NCBI RefSeq assembly: GCF_020731145.1
Contig: NZ_JAJFZN010000003.1
Location: 1-64,000 of the forward strand
Origin: Sneathiella sp. HT1-7
Lineage (GTDB): Bacteria; Pseudomonadota; Alphaproteobacteria; Sneathiellales; Sneathiellaceae
Length of the DNA: 64,000 nt
Reading direction: 5' to 3'
Shown here piece by piece: positions 19,090 to 57,999 of the stretch. How positions within the stretch are numbered: the first letter of the stretch is position 1; every line of letters starts with the position of its first letter. The notes under the pieces were generated by a model. That model was not told where the DNA came from. It was given only the letters and a program-made list of their open reading frames with translations, and did no database searches. The translations under genes and the position numbers were made by a program.

Positions 19090-19092
19090 TCC

Positions 19093-35530: not shown

Positions 35531-35567
35531 TTTTCTTCTCCGCAAAGATGGTTGTTTTACAATAAAT

Positions 35568-36479
35568 TTATTCTGATCCGGCACCGCTGAACGAAAGATG
35601 CATAAAATCCATGAAAGCTTTTGTCATGGGGGACATCTGATTATCAGGGTTCCATACTAAACCGACGTCCATCGTTGGAATATCCCGCCCAAGGATAACT
35701 GTTTCAATTCGTTGGCCGTCAAGTGACCATGGGCGGTACACCATATCGGACAATATTGTGACCCCCACGCCCGCAGCCACCATGCTTCTTACGGCCTCCA
35801 CAGCCGATGTCGTAAAAATTGTTTTCGGGCTAAGCCCTGTCGGCATCCAATACTTACCGGCCGTCTGATCTGCTTCATCACTGGTCAGCATGACGTAGGA
35901 TTCCTTGGCTACGTCACCAAAAGTAATGGTTTTTGCTTCAAGTAGCGGATGATTTGATGGGAGCCAAAGACGTCGCTTCGAGCGGACCAAGGTTTCAAAC
36001 TTAAGGTGTTGCTTATCTCCCAAGTTTGACACCAGGATGACGGCGATGTCGAGATCCCCCTTTAAAAGACTTTTTTCTACCTCTGGCCGGGAAGCCTCGA
36101 TCATTTCAAGTTTTAAGTTTGGATAGCTTCGTGTGAAGCGAACATAGAGCTTTGGCATAAAATAGCCGGCAACAGTAGTAGTAATTCCAACGCGAATGCT
36201 GCCCGACAAATTGATTTCGGTTGATAGTGGTGTTTGGACTGCTTCATTAACAGCAGCCATGATGTTGCGTGCATGCTGTAAGAATCGCGCACCTTCATTG
36301 GTGAGTGAAACACCTGACGGCAGGCGCTCAAATAGAGGCATGCCAACTTCTTCTTCTAGCTGACGAATGGACGCAGTCACAGTCGACTGTGAAATATTGA
36401 ACTCTTTGGCCGCTTGAGATATCTGTCCAAAATCTGCTGTTGCGATGAAGTAACGAATTTGTTTCAAGGTTAATGGCAT
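35568..36479 (-). CDS. LysR-family transcriptional regulator
   Basis: The 303-aa regulator has an N-terminal winged helix (MPLTLKQIRYFIATADFGQISQAAKEFNISQSTVTASIRQLEEEVG) and a C-terminal periplasmic-binding-like effector domain. Start ATG 36479 follows AAGGATCG. It is divergent from the pxpA-led operon across about 130 bp, the usual LysR layout, and is therefore the best candidate regulator of both that operon and its own. The effector is probably a pathway intermediate. Confidence 0.93.
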   Translation of the reverse strand: MPLTLKQIRYFIATADFGQISQAAKEFNISQSTVTASIRQLEEEVGMPLFERLPSGVSLTNEGARFLQHARNIMAAVNEAVQTPLSTEINLSGSIRVGITTTVAGYFMPKLYVRFTRSYPNLKLEMIEASRPEVEKSLLKGDLDIAVILVSNLGDKQHLKFETLVRSKRRLWLPSNHPLLEAKTITFGDVAKESYVMLTSDEADQTAGKYWMPTGLSPKTIFTTSAVEAVRSMVAAGVGVTILSDMVYRPWSLDGQRIETVILGRDIPTMDVGLVWNPDNQMSPMTKAFMDFMHLSFSGAGSE

Positions 36480-36609
36480 AAACTCGATCCTTAGGCGCAT
36501 CTACAAAATCGATATCATCAAGCATTTTTTTCTATTTTACAATACCGCTTAATCGTTGCCAAACTGTACGCATAAAAAAATCCAATACAACACGATAAGG
36601 GAATGGAAA
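36480..36609 (+). promoter_or_regulatory. Divergent lysR-pxpA promoter region
   Basis: The 130 bp between the LysR and pxpA starts are AT-rich and contain ATTTTACAAT at 36534-36543. Three more copies (one with a G first) occur in other intergenic regions of the island (35554, 46425, 55250). It is a candidate regulator or promoter element. I see no unique T-N11-A box. Confidence 0.4.
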
Positions 36610-37338
36610 ATGGCGGTTACGTTGAATTGTGATATGGGAGAAGGTTTCGGATTGTACCAAATGGGCGATGACGAAGGTCTTATGCCTCTTATTTCAATTG
36701 CAAATGTAGCATGCGGTTTTCATGCATCGGATTTCAACCATATGCGGAAAACTGTACGGCTTGCGAAGCAGCATGGTGTGAAAGTTGGTGCGCATCCGTC
36801 GTTGCCGGATTTTCAGGGATTTGGCCGCCGCGAAATGAAGATGTCGCGCGAAGAGATGGCGAATTGCCTGATTTATCAAATTGGCGCGCTTAAAGGATTT
36901 CTTGACGCAGAGGGGATGACCCTCAATCATATCAAACCACATGGGTCGCTTTATGGCATGGCCGCCAGCCAAGAACATATTGCCGCCGCGGTTTGCGATG
37001 CCGCTGATGTATTCAAGGTACCTTTGCTTGGCATGATAGGGACACTTCACGAAACAATGTACCCCGCGCGCGGGCATGAATTCGTGTCTGAGTTTTACAC
37101 TGACCTGGATTACAATGATGACGGTAGTTTAATCGTTTCTCAGGTCCACGAGGCGTTCGATGCGGATGGCGCGGCAGCGAAATGTGTTCGGGCAATTAAT
37201 GAAGGCAAGGTAACGTCTGTTAGCGGGAACCAGATTGATGTGCGCGCGGATTCAATATGCGTACATTCAGATACGCCGAATGCGATTGAAATAGCGACAG
37301 CAGTTCGTACGGCCATCCAGCCGTACATGGCCGCATGA
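36610..37338 (+). CDS. pxpA: LamB/YcsF family, 5-oxoprolinase subunit A-like
   Basis: The 242-aa cytoplasmic protein has LNCDMGEGFG at the start, HPSLPDFQGFGRREM and IKPHGSLYG, the conserved blocks of PxpA. In the prokaryotic 5-oxoprolinase PxpABC this subunit hydrolyses the activated lactam. ATG 36610 is the family start; the track-length extension to 36556 would use TTG. It leads a rightward operon in which the B and C subunits are separated from it by a biotin carrier and a biotin carboxylase. Confidence 0.93.
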   Translation: MAVTLNCDMGEGFGLYQMGDDEGLMPLISIANVACGFHASDFNHMRKTVRLAKQHGVKVGAHPSLPDFQGFGRREMKMSREEMANCLIYQIGALKGFLDAEGMTLNHIKPHGSLYGMAASQEHIAAAVCDAADVFKVPLLGMIGTLHETMYPARGHEFVSEFYTDLDYNDDGSLIVSQVHEAFDADGAAAKCVRAINEGKVTSVSGNQIDVRADSICVHSDTPNAIEIATAVRTAIQPYMAA

Positions 37339-37391
37339 GGTATAATGTTACAGATAAAAATCTTATAACTTTTGGCAATGGATGAGGAAAA

Positions 37392-37634
37392 ATGGCAAAC
37401 AAACAGGTATTATCTCCGCTTCCCGGTACGTTCTATCGTAAGCCAACACCAGATGATCCGGCATATAAATCCGAAGGCGATAGCGTTGCTGTCGGTGACG
37501 TCATTGGCTTGGTCGAGGTCATGAAATCATTCCACGAAGTAAAGTCGGATGCCGCGGGCACAGTTAGTTCGTTTCTGGTTGAAAATGAAGATGCGGTGAT
37601 GGCAGGTCAGCCAATAGTTGAACTCTCTGATTGA
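37392..37634 (+). CDS. Biotin carboxyl carrier protein (AccB-like, short)
   Basis: The 80-aa single biotinyl domain has the modification lysine K45 in VEVMKSFHEV, the slightly altered form of the usual AMKM. It lacks the long Pro/Ala linker of housekeeping AccB. It lies between pxpA and the biotin carboxylase. It would carry CO2 from that enzyme to the PxpB/PxpC pair, whose fold is related to the carboxyltransferase part of urea carboxylase. Confidence 0.92.
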   Translation: MANKQVLSPLPGTFYRKPTPDDPAYKSEGDSVAVGDVIGLVEVMKSFHEVKSDAAGTVSSFLVENEDAVMAGQPIVELSD

Positions 37635-37680
37635 ACAGGAGTAAGTCAAATATATCATGTTAGAATGCTAGGGACTTATC

Positions 37681-39048
37681 ATGACTATTCGTAGGCTATT
37701 AATCGCCAATCGCGGCGAAATTGCAGTACGGATAATCCGTGCCGCGCAAGAATTGGGCATTCATACTATTCAGGTGTTCAGTGATGCCGATGCTAACTCT
37801 CTCGCAGTGAAGTTAGCAGATGAAGCTGTCAATATTGGTGGCGCACAGGCATCAAAATCTTATCTAAATGTTTCCGCAATTATAGAAGCCGCGAAAAGTA
37901 CCAAAGCCGATGCGGTGCATCCAGGCTATGGATTCTTTTCAGAGAATGCAGATTTCGCAGATGCTGTGGTCGCTGCGGGAATGATCTTTGTTGGGCCGAG
38001 CGGCGACACCATCCGATTGATGGGTGATAAGGTATCGGCGCGGCAAGTCGCCGAGAAGGCTGGCGTGCCGACTGTACCGGGTAGCGATGGCCGCATTGAA
38101 AACATTGAAGAAGCCAGAGCAGTTGCCGATAAAACGGGTTTTCCTGTGATGATCAAGGCTGCGGCGGGTGGCGGCGGCCGGGGAATTCGGATCGTCGCCG
38201 ATATGGCCGAATTTGAACATCAGGCGCCTCAGGCAAAGGCAGAAGCAGAAGCTGCGTTTGGTGACGGCGGCCTCTACATTGAAAAAGTTATAGAGTCTGC
38301 ACGGCATATTGAAGTGCAGGTACTCGGTGACGGTGAGAACGTCATTCATTGTTATGAGCGTGAATGCTCGCTTCAGCGTCGACGCCAGAAGGTGTGGGAA
38401 GAGGCACCGGCTGCGGTGCTGCCCGCAAATGTTCGGGATAAGCTTTGCCAGGCGGCTGTCGCACTGGCCGTTTCGGTAAACTACAAAGGCGCAGGCACGG
38501 TCGAATTTTTATACGATGATATGACGCAGGATTTTCATTTTATAGAAATGAATACCCGTATTCAGGTCGAGCATCCTGTATCTGAGTTAATTTGCGGTAT
38601 TGATTTGGTCCGGGAAATGATCCGTATCGCGGGCGGTGAGCCGTTACGCTATGCACAGCAAGACATTGTTCCCCGCGGTCATGCCATTGAAGTGCGTATT
38701 AATGCGGAAGATCCAGCGAAGGACTTTATGCCGTTTCCTGGCGTCGTCAGTGAACTTATCGCGCCCGGCGGTCCGGGTGTTCGCTTTGATACGATGCTGT
38801 ATGCAGGGTATGCCATTCCACCATTCTATGACTCGTTGCTGGGTAAGTTGATTGTTTGGGATGAGGATAGAAATGGAGCAATTATTCGCTTGCAGCGCGC
38901 TCTGAATGAACTCAAGACCGAGGGCGTGAAGACGACAAAATCATTATTTATTGCCTTGGCCGCGGACGAAGATGTTCGTAACGCGCGGTTTGACACCCGA
39001 TGGCTTGAGGGTTGGTTGGAGAAAAATAAGGCTAAGTTGGGCGAGTAG
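37681..39048 (+). CDS. Biotin carboxylase (AccC-like)
   Basis: The 455-aa ATP-grasp enzyme starts RRLLIANRGEIAVRIIRAAQELG. It also has the glycine loop KAAAGGGGRGIRI, ECSLQRRRQKVWEEAPA and EMNTRIQVEHPVSE. It carboxylates the biotin of the adjacent carrier using bicarbonate and ATP. A second acetyl-CoA carboxylase seems less likely than a pathway-specific carboxylase, because no AccA or AccD is near, and PxpB/C-like carboxyltransferase genes follow directly. Confidence 0.94.
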   Translation: MTIRRLLIANRGEIAVRIIRAAQELGIHTIQVFSDADANSLAVKLADEAVNIGGAQASKSYLNVSAIIEAAKSTKADAVHPGYGFFSENADFADAVVAAGMIFVGPSGDTIRLMGDKVSARQVAEKAGVPTVPGSDGRIENIEEARAVADKTGFPVMIKAAAGGGGRGIRIVADMAEFEHQAPQAKAEAEAAFGDGGLYIEKVIESARHIEVQVLGDGENVIHCYERECSLQRRRQKVWEEAPAAVLPANVRDKLCQAAVALAVSVNYKGAGTVEFLYDDMTQDFHFIEMNTRIQVEHPVSELICGIDLVREMIRIAGGEPLRYAQQDIVPRGHAIEVRINAEDPAKDFMPFPGVVSELIAPGGPGVRFDTMLYAGYAIPPFYDSLLGKLIVWDEDRNGAIIRLQRALNELKTEGVKTTKSLFIALAADEDVRNARFDTRWLEGWLEKNKAKLGE

Positions 39049-39073
39049 GTATAACTGGGAAGGTGGGTAATAT

Positions 39074-39949
39074 ATGAAAACGAGGTACACTTTCGGCGGC
39101 GATGAACACATCTTTGTTGAAGTAGACGAGGAAATGTCTCTCGAAGCCTTTTTTAAAAGCTTGTCGATGACGAATGGTGTTCGTGACAAGGGCATAAAGG
39201 GTGTTACAGAAATTTGTCCGGCAAATGCATCCTTCCAGATTAAGTTTGATCCTGATGTGATCAGTCCCAACGAGATGTTGGCGGAACTCAAGAAAATAGA
39301 AGCGACAGCGGAACACGCCGATCATACGATTGAAACCCGCATTGTCGAAGTGCCGGTCTTCTATAAAGATCCGTGGACGCATGAAACATTAATGCGCTTT
39401 CGCGAACGCCATCAGGACCCTAACGGGACAGATCTTGATTATGCAGCGAAAATTAACGGGTTTGATAATGCAGATGAATTTATCAAGGCCCATCATTCCG
39501 CGCCTTGGTTCGTTTCAATGGTCGGCTTCGTGGCAGGATTGCCATTCCTTTATCAGATGGTTGATCGCGCGCGCCAGCTTGAGGTGCCGAAGTATCTAAG
39601 GCCCCGTACCGATACGCCAAAGCAGACGGTAGGGTACGGTGGGTGTTTTTCTTGCATTTATTCGGTGCGAGGGGCCGGCGGGTATCAGATGTTCGGTGTG
39701 ACGCCTATGCCGATTTACGATCCCAAACAAGAAATCAGCTACCTTAAAGACTTCATGGTGTTCTTTAAGCCCGGAGACATCGTCAAGTTCGCGCCAATTG
39801 ATCATACAACGCATGATAAAATTGTCGCTGAAGTAGAGGCTGGTACTTATCAGCCGCGAGTGAAAACAGTCACATTTTCTCTCGATGATTTTAATAAAGA
39901 TATTGATGCCTACAACCAAAAGCTCGAGGAGGTCCTCTATGGCGATTAA
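39074..39949 (+). CDS. pxpB: 5-oxoprolinase subunit B-like / carboxyltransferase domain, extended
   Basis: The 291-aa KipI/PxpB family protein (allophanate hydrolase subunit 1 type) has GFVAGLPFLYQM and the C-terminal IDHTTHDKIV region. It is longer than common PxpB (about 220-240 aa), with an insert rich in aromatic residues and an extended tail. A good GGAAGGTGGG site precedes it, and the last 11 bp overlap pxpC. Together with PxpC it matches the carboxyltransferase half of urea carboxylase. Confidence 0.88.
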   Translation: MKTRYTFGGDEHIFVEVDEEMSLEAFFKSLSMTNGVRDKGIKGVTEICPANASFQIKFDPDVISPNEMLAELKKIEATAEHADHTIETRIVEVPVFYKDPWTHETLMRFRERHQDPNGTDLDYAAKINGFDNADEFIKAHHSAPWFVSMVGFVAGLPFLYQMVDRARQLEVPKYLRPRTDTPKQTVGYGGCFSCIYSVRGAGGYQMFGVTPMPIYDPKQEISYLKDFMVFFKPGDIVKFAPIDHTTHDKIVAEVEAGTYQPRVKTVTFSLDDFNKDIDAYNQKLEEVLYGD

Positions 39950-40913
39950 AGTCATTTCTCCAGGTCTTGCGACCACAGTTCAGGATCTCGGACGCCCCGG
40001 TTATTATCATTTGGGTATCCCGATTTCAGGTGCCATGGATCGCTTTGCCCTCCGGGTTGCCAATATGCTCGTTGGTAATGAGGAAGGTGCGGCTGCTCTT
40101 GAAGCGGTTTTCATGGGGCCAGAGCTGGAATTCACGGCAGACGCTACCGTTGCTGTTACAGGTGGCGATTTGCCACCAAAGGTCGATGGTGAAGCGCGGG
40201 AATCCTGGTCGTCTTTTGAAATAAAGGCGGGTCAGGTCTTGTCATTTGATTATCTAAAGTCTGGAGCACGGGCATATATCGCTATTTCTGGCGGTATCGA
40301 TGTTCCCGTTGTGTTAGGTAGCAGGTCAACATATGCCCTTGGTGCCCTTGGCGGTTTTGAAGGCCGCCCGCTCGGTAAAGATGATGAACTGAAGTTATTG
40401 TCTGAAACCCTCGGGGCGGGGAGTGGCAGGACCGTTGTTCCAGAGCTTCGTCGTCTGCCAGGAAATCCTGCCGAGTTGAGGGCTTTGCCGGGGCTCTACT
40501 GGCATTGGATCACCGAGGAATCGGGAACTAACTTCTTCTCCGATACATGGAAAGTGGCGCCAGAAGCGGACCGTATCGGGTATCGTTTCAAAGGGGGTCA
40601 GCACATTCAGTTCAATGAACGTGAGCGCCCATTCGGCGCGGGTTCCGATCCGTCTAATATTGTTGATGGTTGTTATCCTTATGGATCCATTCAGGTGCCC
40701 GGCGGTACAGAACCAATCGTTCTGCATCGTGATGCGGTGTCAGGCGGCGGGTATTTCATGGTTGGCACCGTGATTTCCGCAGATATGGATCTAATTGGCC
40801 AACTGCAGCCGCACTCTGAAACCCGCTTCGTCAAAGTGGATATGGAAGAGGCGCTCGCGGCACGCCACGATCGGCAGGCAATGCTCGATAAAGTAAGGGC
40901 ATCATTAGCATAG
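39939..40913 (+). CDS. pxpC: 5-oxoprolinase subunit C-like / biotin-dependent carboxyltransferase
   Basis: The 324-aa KipA/PxpC family protein has ISPGLATTVQDLGRPGYYHLGIPISGAMD and the later RIGYRF, VPGGTEPIVLHRDAVSGGGYFMVGTV blocks. Start ATG 39939 follows GAGGAGG. It forms a heterocomplex with PxpB. In this operon it is likely to use carboxybiotin made by the two preceding genes. The chemistry, N-carboxylation of a lactam or urea-like nitrogen, is an inference. Confidence 0.9.
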   Translation: MAIKVISPGLATTVQDLGRPGYYHLGIPISGAMDRFALRVANMLVGNEEGAAALEAVFMGPELEFTADATVAVTGGDLPPKVDGEARESWSSFEIKAGQVLSFDYLKSGARAYIAISGGIDVPVVLGSRSTYALGALGGFEGRPLGKDDELKLLSETLGAGSGRTVVPELRRLPGNPAELRALPGLYWHWITEESGTNFFSDTWKVAPEADRIGYRFKGGQHIQFNERERPFGAGSDPSNIVDGCYPYGSIQVPGGTEPIVLHRDAVSGGGYFMVGTVISADMDLIGQLQPHSETRFVKVDMEEALAARHDRQAMLDKVRASLA

Positions 40914-40969
40914 TAGAATAAGAATTAGGGCCGTTGCGGCAATGTATAACATTTCTAAAAGAAGAGGTT

Positions 40970-42748
40970 ATGATGGCAAAGAAGTCAGCAAATAAGCGCA
41001 AGGTTGATCCGATCACTTTATCTGTTGTTCGGGGTGTACTTGAGACCACGCAACGTGAAATGACGTTATCACTTGAGAAAACCGCTCGTTCCAGCGTGTT
41101 TAACTTGGCGCATGACTACTCAACGGCCCTATTTAATGGTGAACCCGAGATGATCTTGCAGGGGCAAGACATTCCCATCCATCTAGGGTCGCTGATCCCG
41201 GCGATGAAAGTTGTTGCCGCTTATTTTGGCGACGATATCCACGAAGGCGATCTTATCTTGCATAATGATCCAGCCTATGGCGGCAGTCATGCGATCGACG
41301 TCTGTTTTTACAAGCCAGTATTTTTTGAAGGCAAGCTCCGATACTGGACCGTTTGCAAGGGGCATCTGACGGACATTGGCGGGCCAGTGCCTGCGGGCTA
41401 TAACCCGAATGCTAAGGAAATCTATGAAGAATGCTTGCGGATTCCACCAGTAAAAATCTGGGACAAAGGAAAGCCACGCAAAGATGTATTGAATATGATC
41501 TTGACCAACATGCGGGCGCGCCGCGATCAGGAAGGCGATTTCAATGCATTGATCGGCGCCTGTCAGGTAGGTGAGCGGAACCTTCTAGGTTTGATCGATA
41601 AATACGGCATGGATGTCGTTGACGACTGTATCGATGAACTTCTGTCGATGGCAGAACAACATATGCGATCGTTAATTAAGACGGTCCCGGATGGCAAGTA
41701 TACCGGGACGGCGGTCCTTGAAGATGCTGGCCACGGATTAGGTGACTTTGATATTACGGCGACCGTAACGATCAAGAAAGATACTTGCCATATTGAAATC
41801 GCAAGTCCGCCGCAGATCCCGTATTTCATCAATTCCTATGAGGGTAACTCCTACTCAGGCGTTTATCTCGGTCTGATGATGTATGCGCAACTTCCACCCC
41901 CTTATAACGAAGGGCTGTATCGTTGCATCAGCGTCAATATGGGCCCAAAAGGCACCCTTTGTAATGCGAAGGAACCGGCCCCTCATATGAACTGCACGAC
42001 CACGCCAATGGAAACATTGACTGACGCGGTTCGCTTGGCATTTGAACAGGCGATGCCGTCGAAAGTGTCGGCCTCCTGGGGGCATTCAAACGGTTTGAAT
42101 ATTACCGGGTGGGATAAACGACATGACGAAGAATACGTCACCATGGTGTTGGCGAGCATGATTTCGGGTGCCGGCGCGACACCGCAGCAGGACGGTTGGC
42201 ACGCGTGTGGTCCAGAGTGCTGTTTCGGGGCGTTGACATCAGGGGATGTCGAGCTTTTGGAATACTCCTACCCAATCATAATTCATAAATATTCGTTGAT
42301 GGAAGACTCCGGTGGTGCAGGGAAGTACCGCGGTGGCTCTGGGACTGCTTGGGAAGTTGAGCCGTTAGATAGCGAAATGACTTTTATAACTTTTGGTGAG
42401 GGGCGGCATATTCCTGCTATGGGTGCTGCCGGTGCGAAATCGACGCTTATTGATAGCAAAGTTGGTCGCGTCGAAGTGAAGCGTAAGGGCAAGGTAAAGA
42501 TAATACGTGAAAATGTTATCGAAGACATTCAGCCCGGTGACACAGTTACCAACAAGAATCCCGGGGGCGGAGGCTATGGTAATCCGTTCGAGCGTGAGGT
42601 TCCAAAAGTCGTTGATGACGTTAAGAATGGTTTGGTGTCGATTAAGGGCGCGGCAAGTGACTACGGTGTCGTGATCAAGAGCACGAAAACTTTGGAAGTG
42701 GACGCAGATGCCACTAAGAAGTTACGCGCTAAATCCATCGCGGCCTAG
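40970..42748 (+). CDS. Hydantoinase B/oxoprolinase family protein (copy 1)
   Basis: The roughly 592-aa HyuB-type subunit has VDPITLSVVRGVLETTQREM at the N-terminus, then ILHNDPAYGGSHAIDV and the C-terminal GGSGTAWE and NKNPGGGGYGNPFER turns. With HyuA it forms ATP-dependent amidases such as N-methylhydantoinase, 5-oxoprolinase and caprolactamase-type enzymes that open cyclic amides. Start ATG 40970 follows GAAGAGG; 40973 is also possible. It is followed after 32 bp by its HyuA partner. Confidence 0.93.
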   Translation: MMAKKSANKRKVDPITLSVVRGVLETTQREMTLSLEKTARSSVFNLAHDYSTALFNGEPEMILQGQDIPIHLGSLIPAMKVVAAYFGDDIHEGDLILHNDPAYGGSHAIDVCFYKPVFFEGKLRYWTVCKGHLTDIGGPVPAGYNPNAKEIYEECLRIPPVKIWDKGKPRKDVLNMILTNMRARRDQEGDFNALIGACQVGERNLLGLIDKYGMDVVDDCIDELLSMAEQHMRSLIKTVPDGKYTGTAVLEDAGHGLGDFDITATVTIKKDTCHIEIASPPQIPYFINSYEGNSYSGVYLGLMMYAQLPPPYNEGLYRCISVNMGPKGTLCNAKEPAPHMNCTTTPMETLTDAVRLAFEQAMPSKVSASWGHSNGLNITGWDKRHDEEYVTMVLASMISGAGATPQQDGWHACGPECCFGALTSGDVELLEYSYPIIIHKYSLMEDSGGAGKYRGGSGTAWEVEPLDSEMTFITFGEGRHIPAMGAAGAKSTLIDSKVGRVEVKRKGKVKIIRENVIEDIQPGDTVTNKNPGGGGYGNPFEREVPKVVDDVKNGLVSIKGAASDYGVVIKSTKTLEVDADATKKLRAKSIAA

Positions 42749-42780
42749 TTATTTAGATAGACTAAAGAGAAGAAAATATC

Positions 42781-44865
42781 ATGCGTATGAAATATCGCTT
42801 GGGCGTTGATGCCGGCGGCACCTTTACAGATTTCGTTTTGGCAGAACAAAACGGTCAGATCAAACTGTACAAAACACCGTCCACGCCGTCCGATCCGAGG
42901 AAAGCAATCCAAACAGGCCTTGAACTTATTTCTGAAGATATCGGTGAAAGTATCGAAGAAATAATATCAAATTGTGATTTGTGCATTAATGGTACGACTG
43001 TCGGGCTAAATGCGCTCATTCAGCATAAAGGCGCGAAGACCGGTTTGATTTGTACTGCGGGCCATGAGGATTCGATTGAGATTCGATTAGGCCATAAAGA
43101 AGATGGATATCGCTACGACCCTGAATATCCTCCGGCAACGATGTTGGTGCCGCGCTATCTTCGTAAGGGTGTTCGGGAGCGGGTTGTCTCTGATGGTTCA
43201 GTTAAAACACCATTGAATGAGGCTGATATAAGAGCCGCATGCCGTTTGTTTAAGAAAGAGGGTGTCGAAAGTGTCGCCATTTCTTTTGTATGGTCTGTGT
43301 TGCATCCGGAACATGAACTCCGTGCGGCCGAGATTGCGCGCGAAATGCTGCCCGGGGTTATCATTACAGTTGGCAGTGATTTGTATCCGCAAGTCCGGGA
43401 ATATACGCGTACTTCAACGGCGATAACGAACGCTTATTTAGCTCCGATTTTGCGTAAATATGTGGAATCTGTGGATAAATATTTCTCCGATCTCGGGGCC
43501 AAATATCCAGTCCGTTATTTCCAGTCTAACGGCGGTCTTGCTATTGGCGAAGTAATGGGTGATCGCTCCGTTTACGCGATTAATTCTGGACCGGCCTCTG
43601 CGCCCCAAGCTGGGTTGTATGTGGCAGAACCTTTCAACAGCAAAAATGTCATAACCGTTGATATGGGCGGTACGTCATTCGACATTACGCTAACCAAAGA
43701 TGGGGTTACAAACCTCAACAAAGATATCGACTTTTTACGCTATAGAATTGGTGTGCCGATGATCCAGGTGGAAACGCTTGGCGCCGGCGGCGGATCGATT
43801 GGTCACATTGATGATATGGGCCTCATGCAAATGGGGCCGCAGAGTTCGGGCGCAGACCCTGGGCCTGCGTGTTATAGTAAGGGCGGTGAGTTGCCCACGG
43901 TATCTGATGCAAATCTCGTGCTTGGATATTTGAGTCCGGAAGGATTGATTGGCGGGCGCCTGCCGCTTGATATGGATAAGGCTTATAACGCGATTAAGAC
44001 CCATTTGGCGGACCCACTCGGTATTTCGGTGGAGCATGCGGCCTTTGGGATGTTTACTATCGTGAATAACAATATGGTGAACGGTATTCGCCGCGTCTCT
44101 GTTGAACGTGGTTATGATCCGCGTGATTTTGTTTTTGTGGGGGCAGGTGGTGCGACCGCCGCACATATCACAGCGCTTGCCTCTGAAATGGGTGTCAAAA
44201 CTGTCATTCTGAATAAGCTGGCCTCTGGCCTTTGCGCATTTGGTCAGATTATTTCGGATGTTAAGTATAACTATATGGCGACTTGTCCTGTTCGGCTCGA
44301 AGGTAGCGCGCCGAATAAGCGTATTAACAAGGTATTCAAGGAACTTGAGGCGAAAGGAACGAAGCATCTCATCGCGGATGGTTTCAAGAAGTCACAGATT
44401 GATGTCAAACGCAGTATTGAAATGCGATATGTTGGTCAGGTGCACGAGTGTACAGTTGAAATCGGCAATTTTGAAATTGATGATAAGTCTATCGAGGATG
44501 TGAAAATGGCGTTCCATAAGCGCCATGAGGAACTTTACACCTACTCAGAACCGCATAATTTTGTCGAAATAGTGAATGTTGAATGCACGCTTTATGGCCG
44601 GATAGAAAAGCCAAACCCGCTTAAACTCGGCAAGGGTCTCAAGTTGGAAAAAGCCCTTAAAGGCCATCGTAAAGCGATCTTTTCTGCGAAAGGCAAGGGG
44701 ACCAAAACACCTATTTATGATGGTGATAAGCTTGGTGCCGGCGCTCAGATTGAGGGGCCTGCTATCATTGAAGAAACAACGACTTCAATTGTTGTTCAGC
44801 CAGGTTGGTCAGCGAAACTTGATAAGTCTGGTTCTTACGTGCTGAAGCACAAACAAAAGAAGTAA
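42781..44865 (+). CDS. Hydantoinase A/oxoprolinase family protein (copy 1)
   Basis: The 694-aa ATPase subunit with ASKHA fold has phosphate-1 motif LGVDAGGTFTDFVLA at the N-terminus, NGTTVGLNALIQHKGAKTGL, and a second phosphate loop VDMGGTSFDITL. GAGGGSIGHID and GADPGPACY are also present. It phosphorylates or activates the amide during ring opening. It pairs with the upstream HyuB. A low-complexity Lys-rich segment near 625-665 is unusual but in frame. Confidence 0.93.
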   Translation: MRMKYRLGVDAGGTFTDFVLAEQNGQIKLYKTPSTPSDPRKAIQTGLELISEDIGESIEEIISNCDLCINGTTVGLNALIQHKGAKTGLICTAGHEDSIEIRLGHKEDGYRYDPEYPPATMLVPRYLRKGVRERVVSDGSVKTPLNEADIRAACRLFKKEGVESVAISFVWSVLHPEHELRAAEIAREMLPGVIITVGSDLYPQVREYTRTSTAITNAYLAPILRKYVESVDKYFSDLGAKYPVRYFQSNGGLAIGEVMGDRSVYAINSGPASAPQAGLYVAEPFNSKNVITVDMGGTSFDITLTKDGVTNLNKDIDFLRYRIGVPMIQVETLGAGGGSIGHIDDMGLMQMGPQSSGADPGPACYSKGGELPTVSDANLVLGYLSPEGLIGGRLPLDMDKAYNAIKTHLADPLGISVEHAAFGMFTIVNNNMVNGIRRVSVERGYDPRDFVFVGAGGATAAHITALASEMGVKTVILNKLASGLCAFGQIISDVKYNYMATCPVRLEGSAPNKRINKVFKELEAKGTKHLIADGFKKSQIDVKRSIEMRYVGQVHECTVEIGNFEIDDKSIEDVKMAFHKRHEELYTYSEPHNFVEIVNVECTLYGRIEKPNPLKLGKGLKLEKALKGHRKAIFSAKGKGTKTPIYDGDKLGAGAQIEGPAIIEETTTSIVVQPGWSAKLDKSGSYVLKHKQKK

Positions 44866-44961
44866 TCGACACGAACTTTAATATAACTCGATGTCCTTGT
44901 TTAGTGATCGAAATGAAGTAAGCGATCAGTCCACGGGATATTTGATCACGGAGATACACTT

Positions 44962-46335
44962 ATGAACTATGCACCAAATTCTCTTGCCGGTCGCGATCTG
45001 GCTTATTCGTTACATCCATACACCAACTTGGCCGTTCATCAGGAAAAAGGACCTCTTGTTATAACGAGAGGCGAAGGCATTTACATTTATGATGACCAAG
45101 ATAATAAATATATCGAAGGTCTTGCGGGGCTTTGGTGTACGGGCCTTGGCTTTAGTGAAAAACGGCTCGTTGATGCGATTAAGGGTCAACTGGACGTCCT
45201 GCCATTTTCGCATTCGTTTTCGCACCGGGCGACAGTGCCGGTTATCGACCTATCTGAAAAGTTGATTGAATTGGCCCCGGGTGACCTGAGTAAGGTTTAT
45301 CTGGTCAATTCTGGCTCTGAAGCTGTCGATACGGCCATCAAGATGGTATGGTATTATCATAATGCCATCGGCAAACCGGAGAAGAAAAAGATCATTTCTC
45401 GCAAACGCGCATACCATGGCGTAACGGTGGCGGCTGGCTCGTTGACGGCTCTGCCGTATGTGCAGGATGGATGGGATCTGCCCGCAATCCAAGGCATCCG
45501 CCATACTGACACACCATGCTATTATCGGTATGGAGAAGATGGCGAGTCAGAAGAGGACTTTGCCACACGGCTGGCAGAAAATCTCGATCAGCAAATACAG
45601 GATGAAGGTCCGGAAACGGTTGCTGCTTTCATCGCGGAACCGGTCATGGGCGCGGGTGGTGTTATGACGCCGCCCAAAACCTATTTCGAAAAAATACAGA
45701 AGGTTCTGAAAAAGCATGACGTGCTGATGATTGCAGATGAAGTGATCTGCGGTTTTGGTCGAACTGGAGAAATGTGGGGATCAGATACCTATGGAATCAA
45801 GCCTGATATCCTGACATGCGCCAAGCAGCTTTCCTCGTCTTACTTGCCAATTGGTGCCGTTTTGATTACGGACGCGATATATAGCGCATTCGTCGAACAC
45901 AGTACCAAATTGGGGACTTTTGGAACGGGAAACACCTATGGTGGACACCCTGTTGCAGCGGCTGTGGCGCTGGAAACACTAAAGATATATGAGGATGACG
46001 ATATCATAGGCCATGTTCAACGTGTCGCACCACATTTTCAAAAGAGACTTAAGGCCTTGGGCGAACACCCGCTGGTTGGTGAGGCGCGCGGTGTCGGACT
46101 GATTGGTGGCCTGGAACTGGTGGCTGATAAAGCCACCAAAGAGCAATATCCCGCCAGCGCAAAAGCGGCGCCCTTAGCTGTTGAAAAAATCTTGGGACAC
46201 AATCTTATACTTCGGCCGATGCCTGGTGACGGCGTTGGTATTTGCCCTCCGCTTATAATTACAGAGAAAGAAATCGACGAGATGTTCGATCGAATTACGC
46301 GAGGACTGGATGAGGCGAAAGAAATTCTGGGATAA
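44962..46335 (+). CDS. Class III aminotransferase (omega-amino acid type)
   Basis: The 457-aa PLP enzyme has IADEVICGFGRTGEMWG (D259) and Schiff-base lysine K288 in CAKQLSSSYLPIGAV. NSGSEAVDTAIKM binds the cofactor phosphate. Class III members move a terminal amino group to pyruvate or 2-oxoglutarate. At the end of a lactam-opening operon it would deaminate the omega-amino acid formed. A possible weak terminator follows: AGTAA/TTACT at 46337-46349, with a run of eight T at 46361-46368 slightly too far away. Confidence 0.92.
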   Translation: MNYAPNSLAGRDLAYSLHPYTNLAVHQEKGPLVITRGEGIYIYDDQDNKYIEGLAGLWCTGLGFSEKRLVDAIKGQLDVLPFSHSFSHRATVPVIDLSEKLIELAPGDLSKVYLVNSGSEAVDTAIKMVWYYHNAIGKPEKKKIISRKRAYHGVTVAAGSLTALPYVQDGWDLPAIQGIRHTDTPCYYRYGEDGESEEDFATRLAENLDQQIQDEGPETVAAFIAEPVMGAGGVMTPPKTYFEKIQKVLKKHDVLMIADEVICGFGRTGEMWGSDTYGIKPDILTCAKQLSSSYLPIGAVLITDAIYSAFVEHSTKLGTFGTGNTYGGHPVAAAVALETLKIYEDDDIIGHVQRVAPHFQKRLKALGEHPLVGEARGVGLIGGLELVADKATKEQYPASAKAAPLAVEKILGHNLILRPMPGDGVGICPPLIITEKEIDEMFDRITRGLDEAKEILG

Positions 46336-46661
46336 CAGTAATATTTACTATCTAAAGGTGTTTTTTTTGGTGAAAAAGCATTGTTTAATATTGAAAAAAG
46401 TGATGTCAGTGTTTTGATTTTCAGATTTTACAATGATAGCAGAAGCGCTAAGATGATCTTTAGTTTCAACGAGGGAGCTTCGCTAACTTCCTCGTAAGAT
46501 ACCTGCGGCACTTAAAGTAAATGCGTAGGAGCGAAGGTGACAGTTAAATAACGTCGGCAAGTAAATCATCTGATTAAGTCTGAATGAAATCGTCATAATT
46601 CTATAAGTTAGATTTCATTTTCCGACGTTCACAACAAGGCTAATACATGGAGGCGAAAATA
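46336..46661 (+). promoter_or_regulatory. 326-bp intergenic region with folded leader (46550-46629)
   Basis: Three nested inverted repeats suggest a three-way-junction RNA or clustered operators. The outer stem is AACGTCGG 46550-46557 with CCGACGTT 46622-46629. A small hairpin is AATCA 46564-46568 / TGATT 46571-46575. The long arm is AATGAAATC 46583-46591 / GATTTCATT 46611-46619. The outer stem ends 32 bp before the ATG of the binding-protein gene. ATTTTACAAT lies at 46425-46434. It matches no riboswitch class I know. Confidence 0.5.
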
Positions 46662-47729
46662 ATGAAATTAAGTCTTAAAACATCGTTAGTAGCAGCTGCT
46701 CTGGGTGCATTTGCACTCACAGCTGCAAGTGCACAGGCAGCCGATGATTGGTGGCCGGTAAAGGTCTATGATGCGAGCTCGGGCAAGAATGTGGAAACCA
46801 CATATTCTCCGTTAGAAAAAGCATCCAAGCCTTGGAACCTTTGCGTTTCCTTCCCGCATATGAAAGATAGCTTCTGGGTTGCTGTTGCCTACGGCATCGT
46901 GACTGAAGCCAAGCGCCAAGGCGTCAATATGACATTGCTTGAAGCTGGTGGTTACGAGAACCTCCCGCGTCAGCTGTCTCAAATCGATGACTGCATGGCC
47001 TCTGACGCCGATGCAATCATTGTTGGTCCGATTTCCGAAGCGGGACTGGCCAAGAAGTTCGAAGAAAGCATTGCTGCTGGCAAGCCGCTTATCGCGACGG
47101 TGAACCCCGTTAAAGAAGCAAAAACAACAGCAAAAATGTTTGTTGAGTTTGACACCATGGGCGAACAAACTGGCGCATATCTACTCGATCACCTTAAGGG
47201 TAAGCCGGCAAACGCTGTCGCATTCCCTGGTCCTGCAGGATCTGGTTGGGCAGAAGCATTCTATGAAGGCTTCCAGCGCGCTCTTGATGGCAGCAACGTG
47301 AAAATCGAAACTGAAATGTTTGGTGATACAGGCGTTGGTGTTCAGCTCAAGCTGATCCAGGACGCTCTGCAGGCTTATCCGGACATGAATGTTATCTGGG
47401 GTTCAGCTCCGACTGCTGAAGCCGCGATTGGCGCTGTTGCCGAGATCGGTCGTAGCGATGACATGATGATCATGTCTTCATATGAAAATCAGGCAATGCT
47501 CGATGCCATGAACAGTGGTGAAATTCTTGGATTTGCGACGCAATATCCGGTACTTGAAGGCATGATTGCTGTCGATATGGCAATCCGCGCTCTTGAAGGT
47601 AAAGAATTGAAAACATTCCTGAAGCCAATCCCCGATATGATTGCTAAAGCGAATGCGGACAAAATCAACATGGATCTGGTACTCGCGCCAGCGACATGGA
47701 AGCCGGAATATTCTGTGACCGCAGAATAA
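46662..47729 (+). CDS. TorT-like periplasmic sugar-binding-family protein
   Basis: The 355-aa secreted protein has a signal peptide (MKLSLKTSLVAAALGAFALT..AQA) cut before ADDWWPVKV. The mature part resembles TorT: PWNLCVSFPHMKDSFWVAVAYG and MTLLEAGGYENLPRQLSQIDDC. TorT senses TMAO in E. coli, but here the protein heads an ABC operon, so it is the solute receptor. Start ATG 46662 follows GGAGGCG. Encoded with it are an RbsA-like ATPase, two permeases and a hydantoinase pair, which points to uptake of a cyclic amide or related N-compound. Confidence 0.88.
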   Translation: MKLSLKTSLVAAALGAFALTAASAQAADDWWPVKVYDASSGKNVETTYSPLEKASKPWNLCVSFPHMKDSFWVAVAYGIVTEAKRQGVNMTLLEAGGYENLPRQLSQIDDCMASDADAIIVGPISEAGLAKKFEESIAAGKPLIATVNPVKEAKTTAKMFVEFDTMGEQTGAYLLDHLKGKPANAVAFPGPAGSGWAEAFYEGFQRALDGSNVKIETEMFGDTGVGVQLKLIQDALQAYPDMNVIWGSAPTAEAAIGAVAEIGRSDDMMIMSSYENQAMLDAMNSGEILGFATQYPVLEGMIAVDMAIRALEGKELKTFLKPIPDMIAKANADKINMDLVLAPATWKPEYSVTAE

Positions 47730-47759
47730 GCAACGAATAGCTTGAGAGAATCATAACCT

Positions 47760-49349
47760 ATGTATAAAGATTCAGATCAAGTTCTTGATGCAGTGATTTC
47801 CTCCCCAGCTAACACTGGGGAGGAGGTTCCTTCTTCAAGTATCCTTGAGATGCGTGGCATCTCTAAACAGTTTCCCGGTGTTCTCGCGTTGGATAACGTA
47901 GATTTCGATCTTCGTCGTGGTGAGGTGCATATACTTTTTGGCGAGAACGGCGCAGGAAAATCAACACTTATAAATGTTATCGCGGGAACATTCCCGCCGG
48001 ATAAAGGGACATTTCGCTATGATGGGAAAGACATTTCTCATCTGACACCCCACCGAGCGCGTGTCATGGGAATTAGCCCTGTTTTTCAGGAGTTTTCACT
48101 TATCCCGAATTTGACGGTTGAAGAGAACCTCTTTTTGGGACGAGAAACATCTACGACCGGGTTCCTTCGCAAAAAGGCGATGAGTGCCCGTGCCGCTAAA
48201 GTCATTGAGATGTTGGGCTTCGATTTAGATCCCAAAAAACGCGTGTCGTCATTGTCACGAGCGCACCAGCAAATGGTTGAGATTGCCAAAGCCCTGCTCG
48301 CCGATGTTAGGTTGCTGATTTTGGACGAGCCCACTGCATCCCTGACCGAGAACGAAACCTATAAGCTGTTCGAACTGATTGGCCGATTAAAAGCCGACGG
48401 TGTGGGCATTATTTATGTCTCCCACCGCATGCGCGAAATAAAAGAAATCGGTGATAGAATTACTGTATTGCGTGATGGTCTCAAAATTGAAACATGCAAT
48501 GCCGCCGATGTCGGTGAAAATGAGCTCGTGGAATTGATGACAGGGCGCAAAATTGATGTCCTGTTTCCAAAAATTGACCATAAGCCGGCAGAAAAACTGC
48601 TTGAGATTAATAATCTTACACTCGCCAATCACGTGGTTGAGAATGTGAGTATCTATGCTCGCGCTGGCGAGATTACAGGTATTGCAGGACTTGTTGGTTG
48701 CGGCAAATCAGAACTCGTGCGGGCCGTATTTGGGCTGGAGGCATTAGAAGAGGGAGAGATCATTGTTAAAGGCGAACAAATCTCGCACCCGCGCCCGGAT
48801 ATCAGTTTAAGTAAAGGTGTCTGTTATTTTCCTTCTGATCGGGTTGCCGAAGGCTTGGCCCTGGAACGTCCCATTCGCGAAAATGCGTCTATGGCCGCAC
48901 TCAATTTGACGGATTTCTCATGGATGCGAGTATTGAAAAAACTGAACGAGCGAAAGCTCATTCAGGGCATTGTTGATCGATTAAAATTGCGGCCACCCAA
49001 TATTGAGCGTGCAGTAGGCAATCTATCCGGTGGTAACCGACAGAAAGTCATGTTGGCGCGCGGATTAACCCGGGAAACCGATATATTTTTGTTTGATGAA
49101 CCGACGGTCGGGATTGACGTTGGCGCCAAGGTCGAGGTCTATGATCTCATGAAAGAATTAGTCGACAACGGTGCAGCAATTATTCTCGTTTCGTCAGAGT
49201 TGCCAGAAGTTTTGAACCTTTCAAATCGGCTTTACGTCATGCATCGTGCGAAGTTGGTCGCTGAATTGACCGGTGATGATATGACCGAGCAAGCTGTCTT
49301 ATCCTGTTTCTTCCAAGATGAAGAAGCAAATTCAAAAGCAGGAGCCTAG
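47760..49349 (+). CDS. Ribose-type ABC transporter ATPase (RbsA/MglA family)
   Basis: The 529-aa double-ATPase has first Walker A GENGAGKST and Walker B LLILDEPTA, and a first signature SLSRAHQQMV with a lost GGQ. The second P-loop is the typical degenerate GLVGCGKSE, with signature NLSGGNRQKV and IFLFDEPTVGID. This is the common form of RbsA proteins, where only one site hydrolyses ATP. It energises the two permeases encoded next. Confidence 0.94.
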   Translation: MYKDSDQVLDAVISSPANTGEEVPSSSILEMRGISKQFPGVLALDNVDFDLRRGEVHILFGENGAGKSTLINVIAGTFPPDKGTFRYDGKDISHLTPHRARVMGISPVFQEFSLIPNLTVEENLFLGRETSTTGFLRKKAMSARAAKVIEMLGFDLDPKKRVSSLSRAHQQMVEIAKALLADVRLLILDEPTASLTENETYKLFELIGRLKADGVGIIYVSHRMREIKEIGDRITVLRDGLKIETCNAADVGENELVELMTGRKIDVLFPKIDHKPAEKLLEINNLTLANHVVENVSIYARAGEITGIAGLVGCGKSELVRAVFGLEALEEGEIIVKGEQISHPRPDISLSKGVCYFPSDRVAEGLALERPIRENASMAALNLTDFSWMRVLKKLNERKLIQGIVDRLKLRPPNIERAVGNLSGGNRQKVMLARGLTRETDIFLFDEPTVGIDVGAKVEVYDLMKELVDNGAAIILVSSELPEVLNLSNRLYVMHRAKLVAELTGDDMTEQAVLSCFFQDEEANSKAGA

Positions 49350-49352
49350 TTG

Positions 49353-50375
49353 GTGAGCAATAACATAGCTTCAGGTCATCTGCCCCAAAAAGAAGTGAAC
49401 CATCTTGTCAGGGTCATTTCAACGATGGGATTATTGCCTATTCTGCTGGTGATCATTGTCGCCGCTTTGTCAATCTTCGAACCTCGGTTCCTGGGGATAT
49501 TCAATATCCTCAATGTGCTCAGGGAAACTTCGTTTCTGGCGATCCTGGCCGCGGGGCAAATGTTGGTTCTGATTGTCGGTGGCTTTGATTTATCCGTCGG
49601 AGCGGTTGTCGCATTATCTAGTACTGTCATGGCCACGGTAATGGCGAATATGCTCGGTATCATGCCGGATGACGTCGGTTTGGTGATTTTCATTGGCGTC
49701 GCGGCTGGGATTGGGTGCGGCGTAGTTGTAGGGTTAGTGAATGGTCTGTGCGTTGCATACCTTCGGGTGTCTCCATTTATGGTCACCTTGGGAACGCTCT
49801 CAATTGCCTCTGGTGTTGCCTTGCTGCTAACTAACGGCATTCCTGTTTATGGAATGCCGAAAGTTTTTGTAAACGGTTTTGGCCGTGCTCTTTGGCTTGG
49901 TTTACCAACCACAGTCTACGTCGCTTTGACCCTTGTTATAATCGTTTGGATTATTCAGCGATTTACGGTTCTTGGGAGATACATCTATGCCATTGGCGGA
50001 AATTTGCAGGCATCGCAGGTATCCGGTGTATCGACGAAACGCTATTTGATCACAGCCTATACGATGTGCGGCGCGCTGGCTGCGATTACTGGCGTTCTTC
50101 TGACCGCTCGTGTTGGCTCGGGCCAGGCGACGCTTGGCGGTGATATTATGATGCTGCAATCTATTGCGGCGGCGGTCATTGCCGGTGTCAGCTTGCGGGG
50201 CGGTATTGGCCGGGTCGAGCTGGTGACATTGGGCGCTTTGTTCTTGTCGATTGTAACAAATTCCATGAATTTAGTGCGGATTGACAGTAAAATTCAGACG
50301 ATCGTGCTTGGCGTTATCGTGATTTTTGCTGTTGCACTTGAAGAATATGGTAACCGGAGGAAAATTCGTGAGTGA
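49353..50375 (+). CDS. Ribose-type ABC transporter permease (RbsC family), first
   Basis: The roughly 340-aa integral membrane protein has about eight or nine helices and the RbsC motif GGFDLSVGAVVALSS. The cytoplasmic EAA-like loop is GGNLQASQVSGVSTKR. The start is GTG 49353, or TTG 49350, behind AGGAG and only 3 bp after the ATPase stop. It overlaps the next permease by 8 bp and should form a heterodimer with it. Confidence 0.92.
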   Translation: MSNNIASGHLPQKEVNHLVRVISTMGLLPILLVIIVAALSIFEPRFLGIFNILNVLRETSFLAILAAGQMLVLIVGGFDLSVGAVVALSSTVMATVMANMLGIMPDDVGLVIFIGVAAGIGCGVVVGLVNGLCVAYLRVSPFMVTLGTLSIASGVALLLTNGIPVYGMPKVFVNGFGRALWLGLPTTVYVALTLVIIVWIIQRFTVLGRYIYAIGGNLQASQVSGVSTKRYLITAYTMCGALAAITGVLLTARVGSGQATLGGDIMMLQSIAAAVIAGVSLRGGIGRVELVTLGALFLSIVTNSMNLVRIDSKIQTIVLGVIVIFAVALEEYGNRRKIRE

Positions 50376-51363
50376 CGCATCGGTTTCCGCACAAAAAGGG
50401 CAGCTTTCTCGCATTATGCCACTAATCATGCGTTGGCTGATGCCAATTTGTCTTGTCTTGATGGGGCTTGGTTTTGCCGCTGTCGAGCCGCGCATCCTGT
50501 CTGAAGCAAATCTTCTGAATATTACCACGCAAGCCAGTTATCTGGTCATTTTTGCCGCCGCACAAATGGTGGTGATCCTGACCCGTGGATTCGATTTGTC
50601 GCTTGGCATGTGCGTATCGTCCGTCAGTGTGCTGGTCGCGTTGGTTATGACGGGTATTGTTAAGTCCGACCCTGAATCCTTGACGCTGGCTATTGTTCTC
50701 TCTGTATCCGCCGGAATTGCCTTTGGTGTCCTAGTCGGTGCGTTTAACGGGTTCTGCGTTTCTGTTCTGCGCGTAAATCCCTTTATTGTAACACTTGGTT
50801 CGTTGAATATCTGTTACGGGATTGCGTCAACGATATCCGGTGGCCGGCCGGTCTTTGGGGTGCCACGCGAATTCAGTAATATGGTTTATAGTGGAGAATT
50901 TTTGGGCATACCTGCGCCAATTATTATTGCCGCAGTTCTGCTCGTGATCATCCATTTGATTTTAACTCGGACCGTGTTCGGGCGGGGTTTCTACATTTTG
51001 GGCAGTAATCCAAGGGCCGCTAAGGTTGCCGGCATGCCGAGCCGCCTGTACCTGACATATGCATATATTATTTGTTCTGTCTTGGCGGCAATCGGAGCCA
51101 TTCTGTTGACGGCGCGTACAGGTTCGGGTGAACCGAACTTAGGTGGCAGCATTGCACTGGAGAGTATCGCCGCCGCCGTGATTGGCGGGGTAAGCCTGCG
51201 TGGTGGTGTTGGGGGTATCCCGGCGGTCTTATTGGGTGCCGTGTTTGTTACTGTTCTGTCAAATGGAATGAACCTGACGCGCATTGATGGCAATGTTCAG
51301 ATGATTGTTCTGGGGTGTGTCGTAATTGCGGCCGTCTTTGTTGATCGTATACGAACCAAATAA
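50368..51363 (+). CDS. Ribose-type ABC transporter permease (RbsC family), second
   Basis: The 331-aa membrane protein has TRGFDLSLGMCVSSVS and the loop GSNPRAAKVAGMPSR. The start is GTG 50368 with a clear CCGGAGG site 6-8 nt before it; the longer frame lacks one. It is related in sequence to the first permease (SLRGGIGxxELVTLGALFLSIV against SLRGGVGGIPAVLLGAVFVTVL), suggesting tandem duplication. Confidence 0.92.
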   Translation: MSDASVSAQKGQLSRIMPLIMRWLMPICLVLMGLGFAAVEPRILSEANLLNITTQASYLVIFAAAQMVVILTRGFDLSLGMCVSSVSVLVALVMTGIVKSDPESLTLAIVLSVSAGIAFGVLVGAFNGFCVSVLRVNPFIVTLGSLNICYGIASTISGGRPVFGVPREFSNMVYSGEFLGIPAPIIIAAVLLVIIHLILTRTVFGRGFYILGSNPRAAKVAGMPSRLYLTYAYIICSVLAAIGAILLTARTGSGEPNLGGSIALESIAAAVIGGVSLRGGVGGIPAVLLGAVFVTVLSNGMNLTRIDGNVQMIVLGCVVIAAVFVDRIRTK

Positions 51364-53156: not shown

Positions 53157-53163
53157 CAGGCTT

Positions 53164-57962: not shown

Positions 57963-57999
57963 ACATAATGTCTTTCCCCGAATCTGAGTGAGCCCCTCC

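Follow-up and report, generated by a model that had tools for sequence, protein, structure and literature searches.

What do a biotin carrier and a biotin carboxylase do inside a row of genes that otherwise resembles pxpABC? The question is raised by positions 36610–40913 of a 64,000-nucleotide stretch of the Sneathiella sp. HT1-7 genome (contig NZ_JAJFZN010000003.1, positions 1–64,000; hereafter, the window). A sequence-only reading of this DNA had claimed that the five genes supply every part of a urea carboxylase (UC)-like enzyme plus PxpA as hydrolase, and that the products carry out N-carboxylation of a cyclic amide followed by ring opening. We confirmed all five genes in the order pxpA, biotin carboxyl carrier protein (BCCP), biotin carboxylase (BC), pxpB-like, and pxpC-like, all on the + strand; this row and its counterparts elsewhere are called the cassette here. 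On balance, sequence comparison leads us to favor the view that the cassette encodes a UC-like multi-subunit biotin-dependent N-carboxylase, which has PxpA as its own hydrolase and would open a cyclic amide. The formation of carboxybiotin and a UC-like site of carboxyl transfer are predictions that we consider well supported. The architectural half of the earlier claim stood, through the conserved gene set, the lysine, insert, and tail of PxpB, its fold, and an association with bioY and bioB; as to the chemical half, we infer complex formation, carboxyl transfer to nitrogen, a cyclic-amide substrate, and the role of PxpA.

36610..37338, + strand: PxpA-like LamB/YcsF hydrolase, predicted ring-opening subunit (PF03746, 303 bits)
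37392..37634, + strand: biotin carboxyl carrier protein, 80 amino acids, biotinyl lysine K45 (PF00364; NCBIfam NF005457, 121.8 bits, cut-off 87)
37681..39048, + strand: biotin carboxylase (NF009471, 751.7 bits, cut-off 686)
39074..39949, + strand: PxpB-like carboxyltransferase half (CT_C_D) with UC features, K173 equivalent to yeast UC base K1605 (PF02682; urea_carbox, 123 bits)
39939..40913, + strand: PxpC-like carboxyltransferase half (CT_A_B) with UC features (PF02626, 295 bits)

The genes are separated by 53, 46, 25, and -11 bases, the last value being the 11-base overlap of pxpC with pxpB. For pxpC, an alternative in-frame ATG occurs at 39885. The pxpA start is given as the ATG at 36610, and a TTG at 36556 is in frame as well.

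Urea Carboxylase Features of PxpB and PxpC

The proposed general base of the yeast UC carboxyltransferase is K1605 (as described in PMC5770610), and K173 of the Sneathiella PxpB aligns with this residue. Lysine occupies the position in 88 of 88 cassette-type PxpBs (including those of loci L087 and L088), in 13 of 13 UCs, and in all eight plasmid-borne cassettes that were opened. Arginine occupies it in 38 of 38 aligned classic PxpBs, including that of E. coli; the fused row L191 is unaligned. We refer to these two kinds as Lys-type and Arg-type. The CT_A_B and CT_C_D proteins of the cassette, having the equivalent of the K1605 base, have the makeup of a UC-type carboxylase.

PxpB had been called enlarged, and it is indeed 291 amino acids in length, as compared to 218 in E. 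coli. Residues 101–110 are occupied in 100% of cassette and UC rows of the alignment and in 0% of Arg-type rows, and the tail (residues 251–290) is occupied in 92–100% of UC rows versus 24–59% of Arg-type rows. The AlphaFold model of PxpB, which has a mean pLDDT of 79.7 and is weak in loops near 187–202, matches the fold of UC best (TMq 0.74, versus 0.51 for E. coli YbgJ). The best solved relative is likewise yeast UC, over residues 2–269, by a narrow margin over archaeal PH0987 (61 versus 59 bits). Among PxpB columns conserved at 90%, ten are shared by cassette and UC alone, seven by cassette and Arg-type alone, and one by UC and Arg-type alone; the corresponding numbers for PxpC are 11, 0, and 1. 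The catalytic lysine, the UC-type insert and tail, and a fold match in which UC comes ahead of PxpB are among the features that support the architectural half of the earlier claim.

Profile scores place the two proteins outside the 5-oxoprolinase equivalogs. The PxpB-like protein scores higher with the urea_carbox model (123 bits) than with the PxpB model TIGR00370 (76.1 bits, cut-off 145.55), and the PxpC-like protein reaches 218 bits with the PxpC equivalog NF045499, for which the cut-off is 500. The cut-off of the single-chain urea_carbox equivalog (1303.85) is not reached either, the matches being distributed over separate chains (BC 533 bits, PxpC 239, and PxpB 123).

Biotin Carrier and Biotin Carboxylase

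Both biotin proteins have the hallmarks of a UC-type biotin carboxylase. The biotinyl lysine K45 of BCCP, predicted in the earlier reading, lies within an MK motif (EVMKSF) and is lysine in all 79 alignable relatives (nine of the 88 loci lack an alignable BCCP). The BC passes the NF009471 cut-off and has an intact active site: the ten active-site positions, whose roles we assume, are unchanged in all alignable relatives.

The Sneathiella genome encodes six BCs. One of the others adjoins an AccB-type carrier on another contig, forming an accB-accC-like pair; three are part of 659–674-amino acid frames, each with a neighboring Carboxyl_trans gene; and the last, ~33 kb away from the cassette BC, clusters with a separate BCCP and separate Carboxyl_trans genes. 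Two full-length Carboxyl_trans genes occur elsewhere in the genome with no BC nearby. The earlier reading had named, as a case that would speak against it, biotin proteins that serve an acyl-CoA carboxyltransferase. No such partner (PF01039) for the cassette BC and BCCP, the pairing characteristic of acetyl/acyl-CoA carboxylases, was found among the row proteins scanned, and the nearest Carboxyl_trans genes are ~26 kb away with a BCCP and BC of their own. The cassette BC is distinct from the housekeeping acetyl-CoA carboxylase, and it is PxpB and PxpC that adjoin it.

Just past the window, an acyl-CoA carboxylase-type cluster (L181; G000 C5 60000–79900) contains BCCP, Carboxyl_trans genes, BC, and a TRAP transporter.

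It is also conceivable, though we consider it highly improbable, that PxpBC does not catalyze carboxyl transfer but assists or regulates a biotin carboxylase complex. PDB entry 9yx5, going by its title, is an M. smegmatis long-chain acyl-CoA carboxylase complex with bound MSMEG_0435-MSMEG_0436, which are PxpB/PxpC homologues, and this fits contact between PxpBC and biotin enzymes. However, no other carboxyltransferase was found among the row proteins scanned, and the UC base is kept in every cassette-type PxpB.

Recurrence of the Five-Gene Set

When an alignment of seven PxpBs was used to search the GTDB species genomes, at least 509 relatives were found; the best 80 were examined, so the counts speak for close relatives. 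These 80 nearest loci have BC and pxpC in 80 of 80 cases, BCCP in 73, and pxpA in 72, and all loci missing BCCP or pxpA have a contig end no more than 2.4 kb upstream. The set does recur, then, a point for which the sequence-only reading had suggested a survey. Starting from the carboxylase gave the same picture: a BC of the NF009471 family (E≤1e-200) occurs in 6 of 299 Pseudomonadota genomes, and all six carry the matching short BCCP and a CT_C_D gene no farther than 1.5 kb from it. Chance does not account for this association. In G218, a seventh genome, the cassette BC gene is split over two contigs, as a result of either an insertion or an assembly fault; residues ~1–159 are on one contig, which runs on, and residues 173–449 are at the end of the other (L084 and L085; contigs C34 and C103). 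The contig of L084 has neither pxpB nor pxpC, and this locus was excluded from PxpB/PxpC counts.

The cassette also matches 89 plasmid records, and in Rhizobium johnstonii 3841 it is found on pRL12 (RL_RS33685-RS33705). All five genes are present in each of the eight records opened; four have the same gene order and four are rearranged. Among the eight are records of the haloarchaeon Haladaptatus and of Rubrobacter and Rhodococcus, and the lysine is present in each. Because the set survives shuffling of its order, it is likely a functional set.

This persistence bears on the possibility that the row consists of an ordinary ATP-phosphorylating PxpABC, with BC and BCCP belonging to an acyl-CoA carboxylase and being neighbors for some other reason. 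The public names agree with such a division (acetyl-CoA carboxylase for BCCP and BC, 5-oxoprolinase for PxpA), the two Carboxyl_trans genes with no BC nearby could accommodate it, and PxpB is overall as close to Arg-type PxpB as to UC (see below). Nevertheless, the persistence of the set where order is shuffled, the retention of the UC base, and the existence of an accB-accC-like pair elsewhere in the genome make this explanation most improbable.

In a census of CT_C_D genes, all 100 non-UC places (the window included) and 13 of 38 UC-length matches were taken. The non-UC places comprise eight of Lys-type and 92 of Arg-type, the latter being 12 fused and 80 split. BC adjoins seven of the eight Lys-type places.

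Neighboring Genes and Candidate Substrates

Beyond pxpC, the row extends to 46335 and takes in capB, capA, and a gene for a class III aminotransferase. The genes flanking the cassette are as follows.

35568..36500, - strand: divergent LysR-type gene, possible regulator of the row (family named by eye)
40970..42748, + strand: CapB-like caprolactamase beta subunit (NF050157, 1107 bits, cut-off 1000)
42781..44865, + strand: CapA-like caprolactamase alpha subunit (NF050156, 1244.7 bits, cut-off 1000; best solved relative 6yra)
44962..46335, + strand: class III aminotransferase (NF004767, 690 bits, cut-off 517; best solved relative 6g4b)
46647..51363, + strand: sugar-type ABC transporter comprising binding protein, ATPase, and two permeases, possible importer (named by eye)

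Both CapA and CapB exceed the caprolactamase equivalog cut-offs, and 6g4b is, we take it, a P. jessenii caprolactam enzyme. CapA/HyuA relatives occur within 7 kb of 19 of 87 cassette loci and CapB/HyuB relatives within 7 kb of 23 of 87, as compared to 0 of 92 Arg-type loci in either case; Fisher values for this comparison of 87 with 92 loci treat related loci as independent. The neighbors point to lactams and related cyclic amides, with no single one named. N-carboxylation of a cyclic amide followed by ring opening would be the likeliest chemistry, being the one favored by the CapAB/hydantoinase neighbors.

A relative of the window's LysR-type gene is present in 58 of the 80 nearest loci, and relatives of the transporter ATPase and binding protein are present in 63 and 37, respectively, with varying positions and similarity. 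A second HyuB/HyuA-like (hydantoinase/oxoprolinase) pair is located at 51441–55215 in the window, between sugar-type ABC transporter genes (assigned by eye), and these proteins match the same related loci as CapB and CapA. On an Agrobacterium rubi plasmid (L282, 10934–18844), the cassette is followed by a gene for an LLM flavin oxidoreductase, the F420 biosynthesis genes cofC, cofD, cofE, and cofH, and npdG and gabT, a possible F420-dependent pathway beside the putative lactam carboxylase.

Genes related to biotin itself also accompany the cassette. In 17 of 88 loci, the gene bioY (PF02632) starts 20–85 nucleotides after pxpC, and two further loci have it nearby; within 7 kb, it is found in 19 of 87 cassette loci versus 0 of 92 Arg-type loci. 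In Acidiphilium, bioB directly follows the cassette, and a bioB relative is near the cassette in 1 of 88 loci versus 0 of 92 controls. In the window, no bioY follows pxpC; the genome has one bioY match elsewhere. A higher count of 48 loci with bioY, taken from a neighbor cluster, was rejected, as some members are frames inside pxpC and the direct search gives 19 of 88. Biotin as the substrate was dropped, since bioY and bioB were its sole support and cofactor supply is the simpler explanation.

A UC-like carboxylase could also act on an acyclic substrate (urea, a guanidine-like compound, or a carboxamide), with PxpA cleaving the carboxylated amide in place of allophanate hydrolase. The base, the insert, and most of the conserved shared columns are those of UC, and an amidase is one recurrent neighbor cluster, found in eight loci. 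We nonetheless consider an acyclic substrate unlikely, as none of the eight row proteins scanned has an amidase domain, the enriched neighbors are lactam- or hydantoin-type genes, and ring opening in 5-oxoprolinase is ascribed to PxpA (PMC13274462).

PxpA

Residues D8, H38, D41, H62, D67, K109, and H111 of PxpA are identical in 79 of 79 alignable relatives. In a tree of 34 sampled cassette PxpAs and 48 other sequences (SH-aLRT support only), the cassette proteins cluster together (SH-aLRT 90), fall into two subgroups (99), and are separate from E. coli PxpA. Because PxpA forms a cassette-specific group, the hydrolase seems to have traveled together with the carboxylase. A second pxpA in many loci was considered and rejected, as the extra frames in the listed loci overlap LysR on the opposite strand.

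The cassette might be a biotin-dependent 5-oxoprolinase, in which the substrate is 5-oxoproline and only the activation chemistry differs from that of E. coli PxpABC. PxpA passes the cut-off of the 5-oxoprolinase PxpA subfamily NF003814 (279.5 bits, cut-off 226), and the sole LamB_YcsF match and the sole CT_C_D match of the Sneathiella genome are both in the cassette. However, PxpB and PxpC fall below the 5-oxoprolinase equivalog cut-offs, cassettes are found on plasmids, other lactam-type genes are often nearby, and an Arg-type PxpB is present as well in four of the eight genomes that encode a split Lys-type PxpB (G094, G183, G261, and G273). This identity is quite unlikely in our estimation.

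Proposed Mechanism

In the mechanism we favor for opening a cyclic amide, BC would use ATP and bicarbonate to carboxylate the biotin on K45 of BCCP, and the carboxybiotin would then move to the PxpB-PxpC carboxyltransferase site. There, K173 would serve as general base, the part proposed for K1605 in yeast UC, and the amide nitrogen of the cyclic substrate would receive the carboxyl group. PxpA would open this cyclic amide, which could be a lactam, an imide, or a cyclic ureide and would be activated by its N-carboxylation, and the resulting carbamate would lose CO2 to yield an amino acid. CapAB and the aminotransferase may help degrade the amino acid released.

Kinship and Biotin Linkage of PxpBC

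Several observations weigh against this interpretation, the first of which concern overall kinship. On average, cassette PxpB is 23.1% identical to UC and 23.0% identical to Arg-type proteins, the values for PxpC being 36.0% and 33.1%. Group-majority letters match Arg-type alone in more columns than UC alone (39 versus 31 in PxpB and 42 versus 32 in PxpC), and the best single match of PxpC is E. coli YbgK (167 bits versus 154). Unrooted trees of both halves, with long branches flagged by the program, resolve three groups: cassette, UC, and Arg-type. The 79-row tree took in 30 of 88 cassette, 13 UC, and 36 of 39 classic rows (L191 being unaligned and two being identical copies), and the 76-row tree, for which SH-aLRT was the only support, took in 28 cassette, 13 UC, and 35 Arg-type rows. 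The Arg-type group is set apart at 100/99 in the former and at SH-aLRT 92 in the latter, and the divergent split locus L087 alone joins UC in both (95/77; SH-aLRT 97). The idea that these trees make cassette and UC sister groups was rejected, because three groups without a root cannot show it. The active-site and invariant features are UC-like, while the bulk of the PxpB and PxpC sequence is about equidistant from UC and Arg-type.

The same caution applies to biotin linkage. Arg-type PxpBCs are also found beside biotin genes, with BC adjoining 11 of 12 fused and 5 of 80 split loci; 74 of the split loci have no BC, and one has a distant BC. Lysine is not needed for biotin linkage, therefore, and its use as a marker of biotin dependence was ruled out; it appears to mark a UC-like PxpBC lineage rather than biotin linkage as such. 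Conversely, a Lys-type pxpA-pxpB-pxpC locus of 64% identity (L088; G261 C6) has no BC or BCCP within 19.9 kb; its products may rely on a biotin carrier encoded elsewhere. Several lineages of PxpBC are linked to biotin, the fused Arg-type loci providing the fold with a second such link.

Fused Arg-type PxpB-PxpC proteins beside BC and a biotinyl domain were seen at L182–L188, L190, L191, L213, and L246.

The remaining points concern the substrate. Of 87 cassette loci, 68 lack a CapA/HyuA relative within 7 kb (flanks shorter than this occur in 25 of the 87), and the CapAB of the row itself belongs to an ATP-dependent lactam hydrolase family. Given this family membership, the cassette may have some other kind of substrate. 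On the favored reading, two lactam-type systems share one row.

Relation to Known Systems

Single-chain UC and biotin-free PxpABC are already known. The cassette shares with UC (yeast 3va7/5i8i and the bacterial single-chain enzymes) the BC, BCCP, and CT_A_B/CT_C_D parts, the catalytic lysine, the insert and tail of the C-D half, and the best fold match. It differs from UC in consisting of four separate chains instead of one chain of ~1200 amino acids, in forming its own group in trees, and in having PxpA rather than allophanate hydrolase as hydrolase partner. With PxpABC of E. coli, B. subtilis, and C. glutamicum, the cassette shares PxpA, PxpB, and PxpC encoded side by side, and its overall PxpB identity to these equals that to UC. 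However, classic PxpB has arginine in place of the UC base and no UC insert, and BC and BCCP are absent beside most split Arg-type loci (74 of 80, as above).

Biotin genes beside relatives of PxpA, PxpB, and PxpC occur in P. aeruginosa PA0492–PA0496 and in the operons of fused PxpBC with BC-BCCP, with fused and split Arg-type versions read here from other genomes. We take PA0492, PA0495, and PA0496 to be the relatives of PxpA, PxpB, and PxpC, respectively. In a 2018 paper, PA0493 and PA0494 are related to fatty-acid synthesis and their function is called unknown (PMC6249292). A 2011 survey records, in its section 8, split UC-transferase genes with no functional data (PMC3199775). Among the papers listed in searches of the open-licence PMC literature, none deals with a lactam carboxylase or with a PxpABC that depends on biotin.

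The caprolactam pathway of P. jessenii has homologues of the CapA, CapB, and aminotransferase encoded downstream of the cassette. As described for that pathway, caprolactamase converts caprolactam to 6-aminocaproate, from which the aminotransferase then removes the amino group; unlike the cassette, biotin does not appear in the main text of the report (PMC6061476). CapAB is described as not similar to PxpABC, and its activity is also bicarbonate dependent, by means of another protein family (PMC8453981).

In public annotation, the cassette BCCP and BC are named acetyl-CoA carboxylase, the transferase is named carboxyltransferase or allophanate hydrolase subunit 1, and the hydrolase is named 5-oxoprolinase subunit PxpA. 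We raise tentatively, as a possibility that we consider less likely than not, a broader scheme in which carboxybiotin-driven N-carboxylation is a third and undescribed route for opening cyclic amides, beside CapAB/OplAH and PxpABC. It would be used by several PxpBC lineages (Lys-type split, fused Arg-type with BC-BCCP, and some split Arg-type) in Pseudomonadota, with the Lys-type also in Actinomycetota and haloarchaea. The PRK07051 and PRK12833 "acetyl-CoA carboxylase" families would be its subunits, and PxpBC would be biotin dependent at its root, with the biotin-free 5-oxoprolinase as an offshoot. If the favored reading of the cassette is right, the number of genomes with a mislabeled biotin enzyme is probably in the hundreds (the scan gave at least 509 relatives of PxpB, of which the best 80 were examined), its transferase often misnamed allophanate hydrolase, its carrier and carboxylase acetyl-CoA carboxylase, and its hydrolase 5-oxoprolinase. 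The enzyme would also provide a living link between the UC transferase and the 5-oxoprolinase subunits of the same fold. Cyclic amides would join the acceptors of biotin carboxylases, those known being acyl-CoAs, pyruvate, and urea (as listed in PMC3199775).

Expression Signals and Other Features of the Window

An uninformative scan of 35500–47000 found 12 promoter-like sites versus 17.2 expected and 18 terminator-like sites versus 11.3 expected; it found no terminator-like sites on the + strand in the gaps between row genes. Elsewhere in the window, a 711-amino acid frame (57988–60123) appears to join an ABC permease to a second, soluble domain (SMP-30/lactonase-like by eye), and a separate protein of similar appearance is encoded next, at 60087–61235. 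An F-type ATPase-like operon (15693–22311) follows thymidine phosphorylase-like and PRPP synthase-like genes (by eye). Transposase-like genes at 828–1526 and 10150–10845 bracket Fic-like, methyltransferase-like, and GHKL-ATPase-like genes (by eye), and the stretch between the two is perhaps a mobile island.

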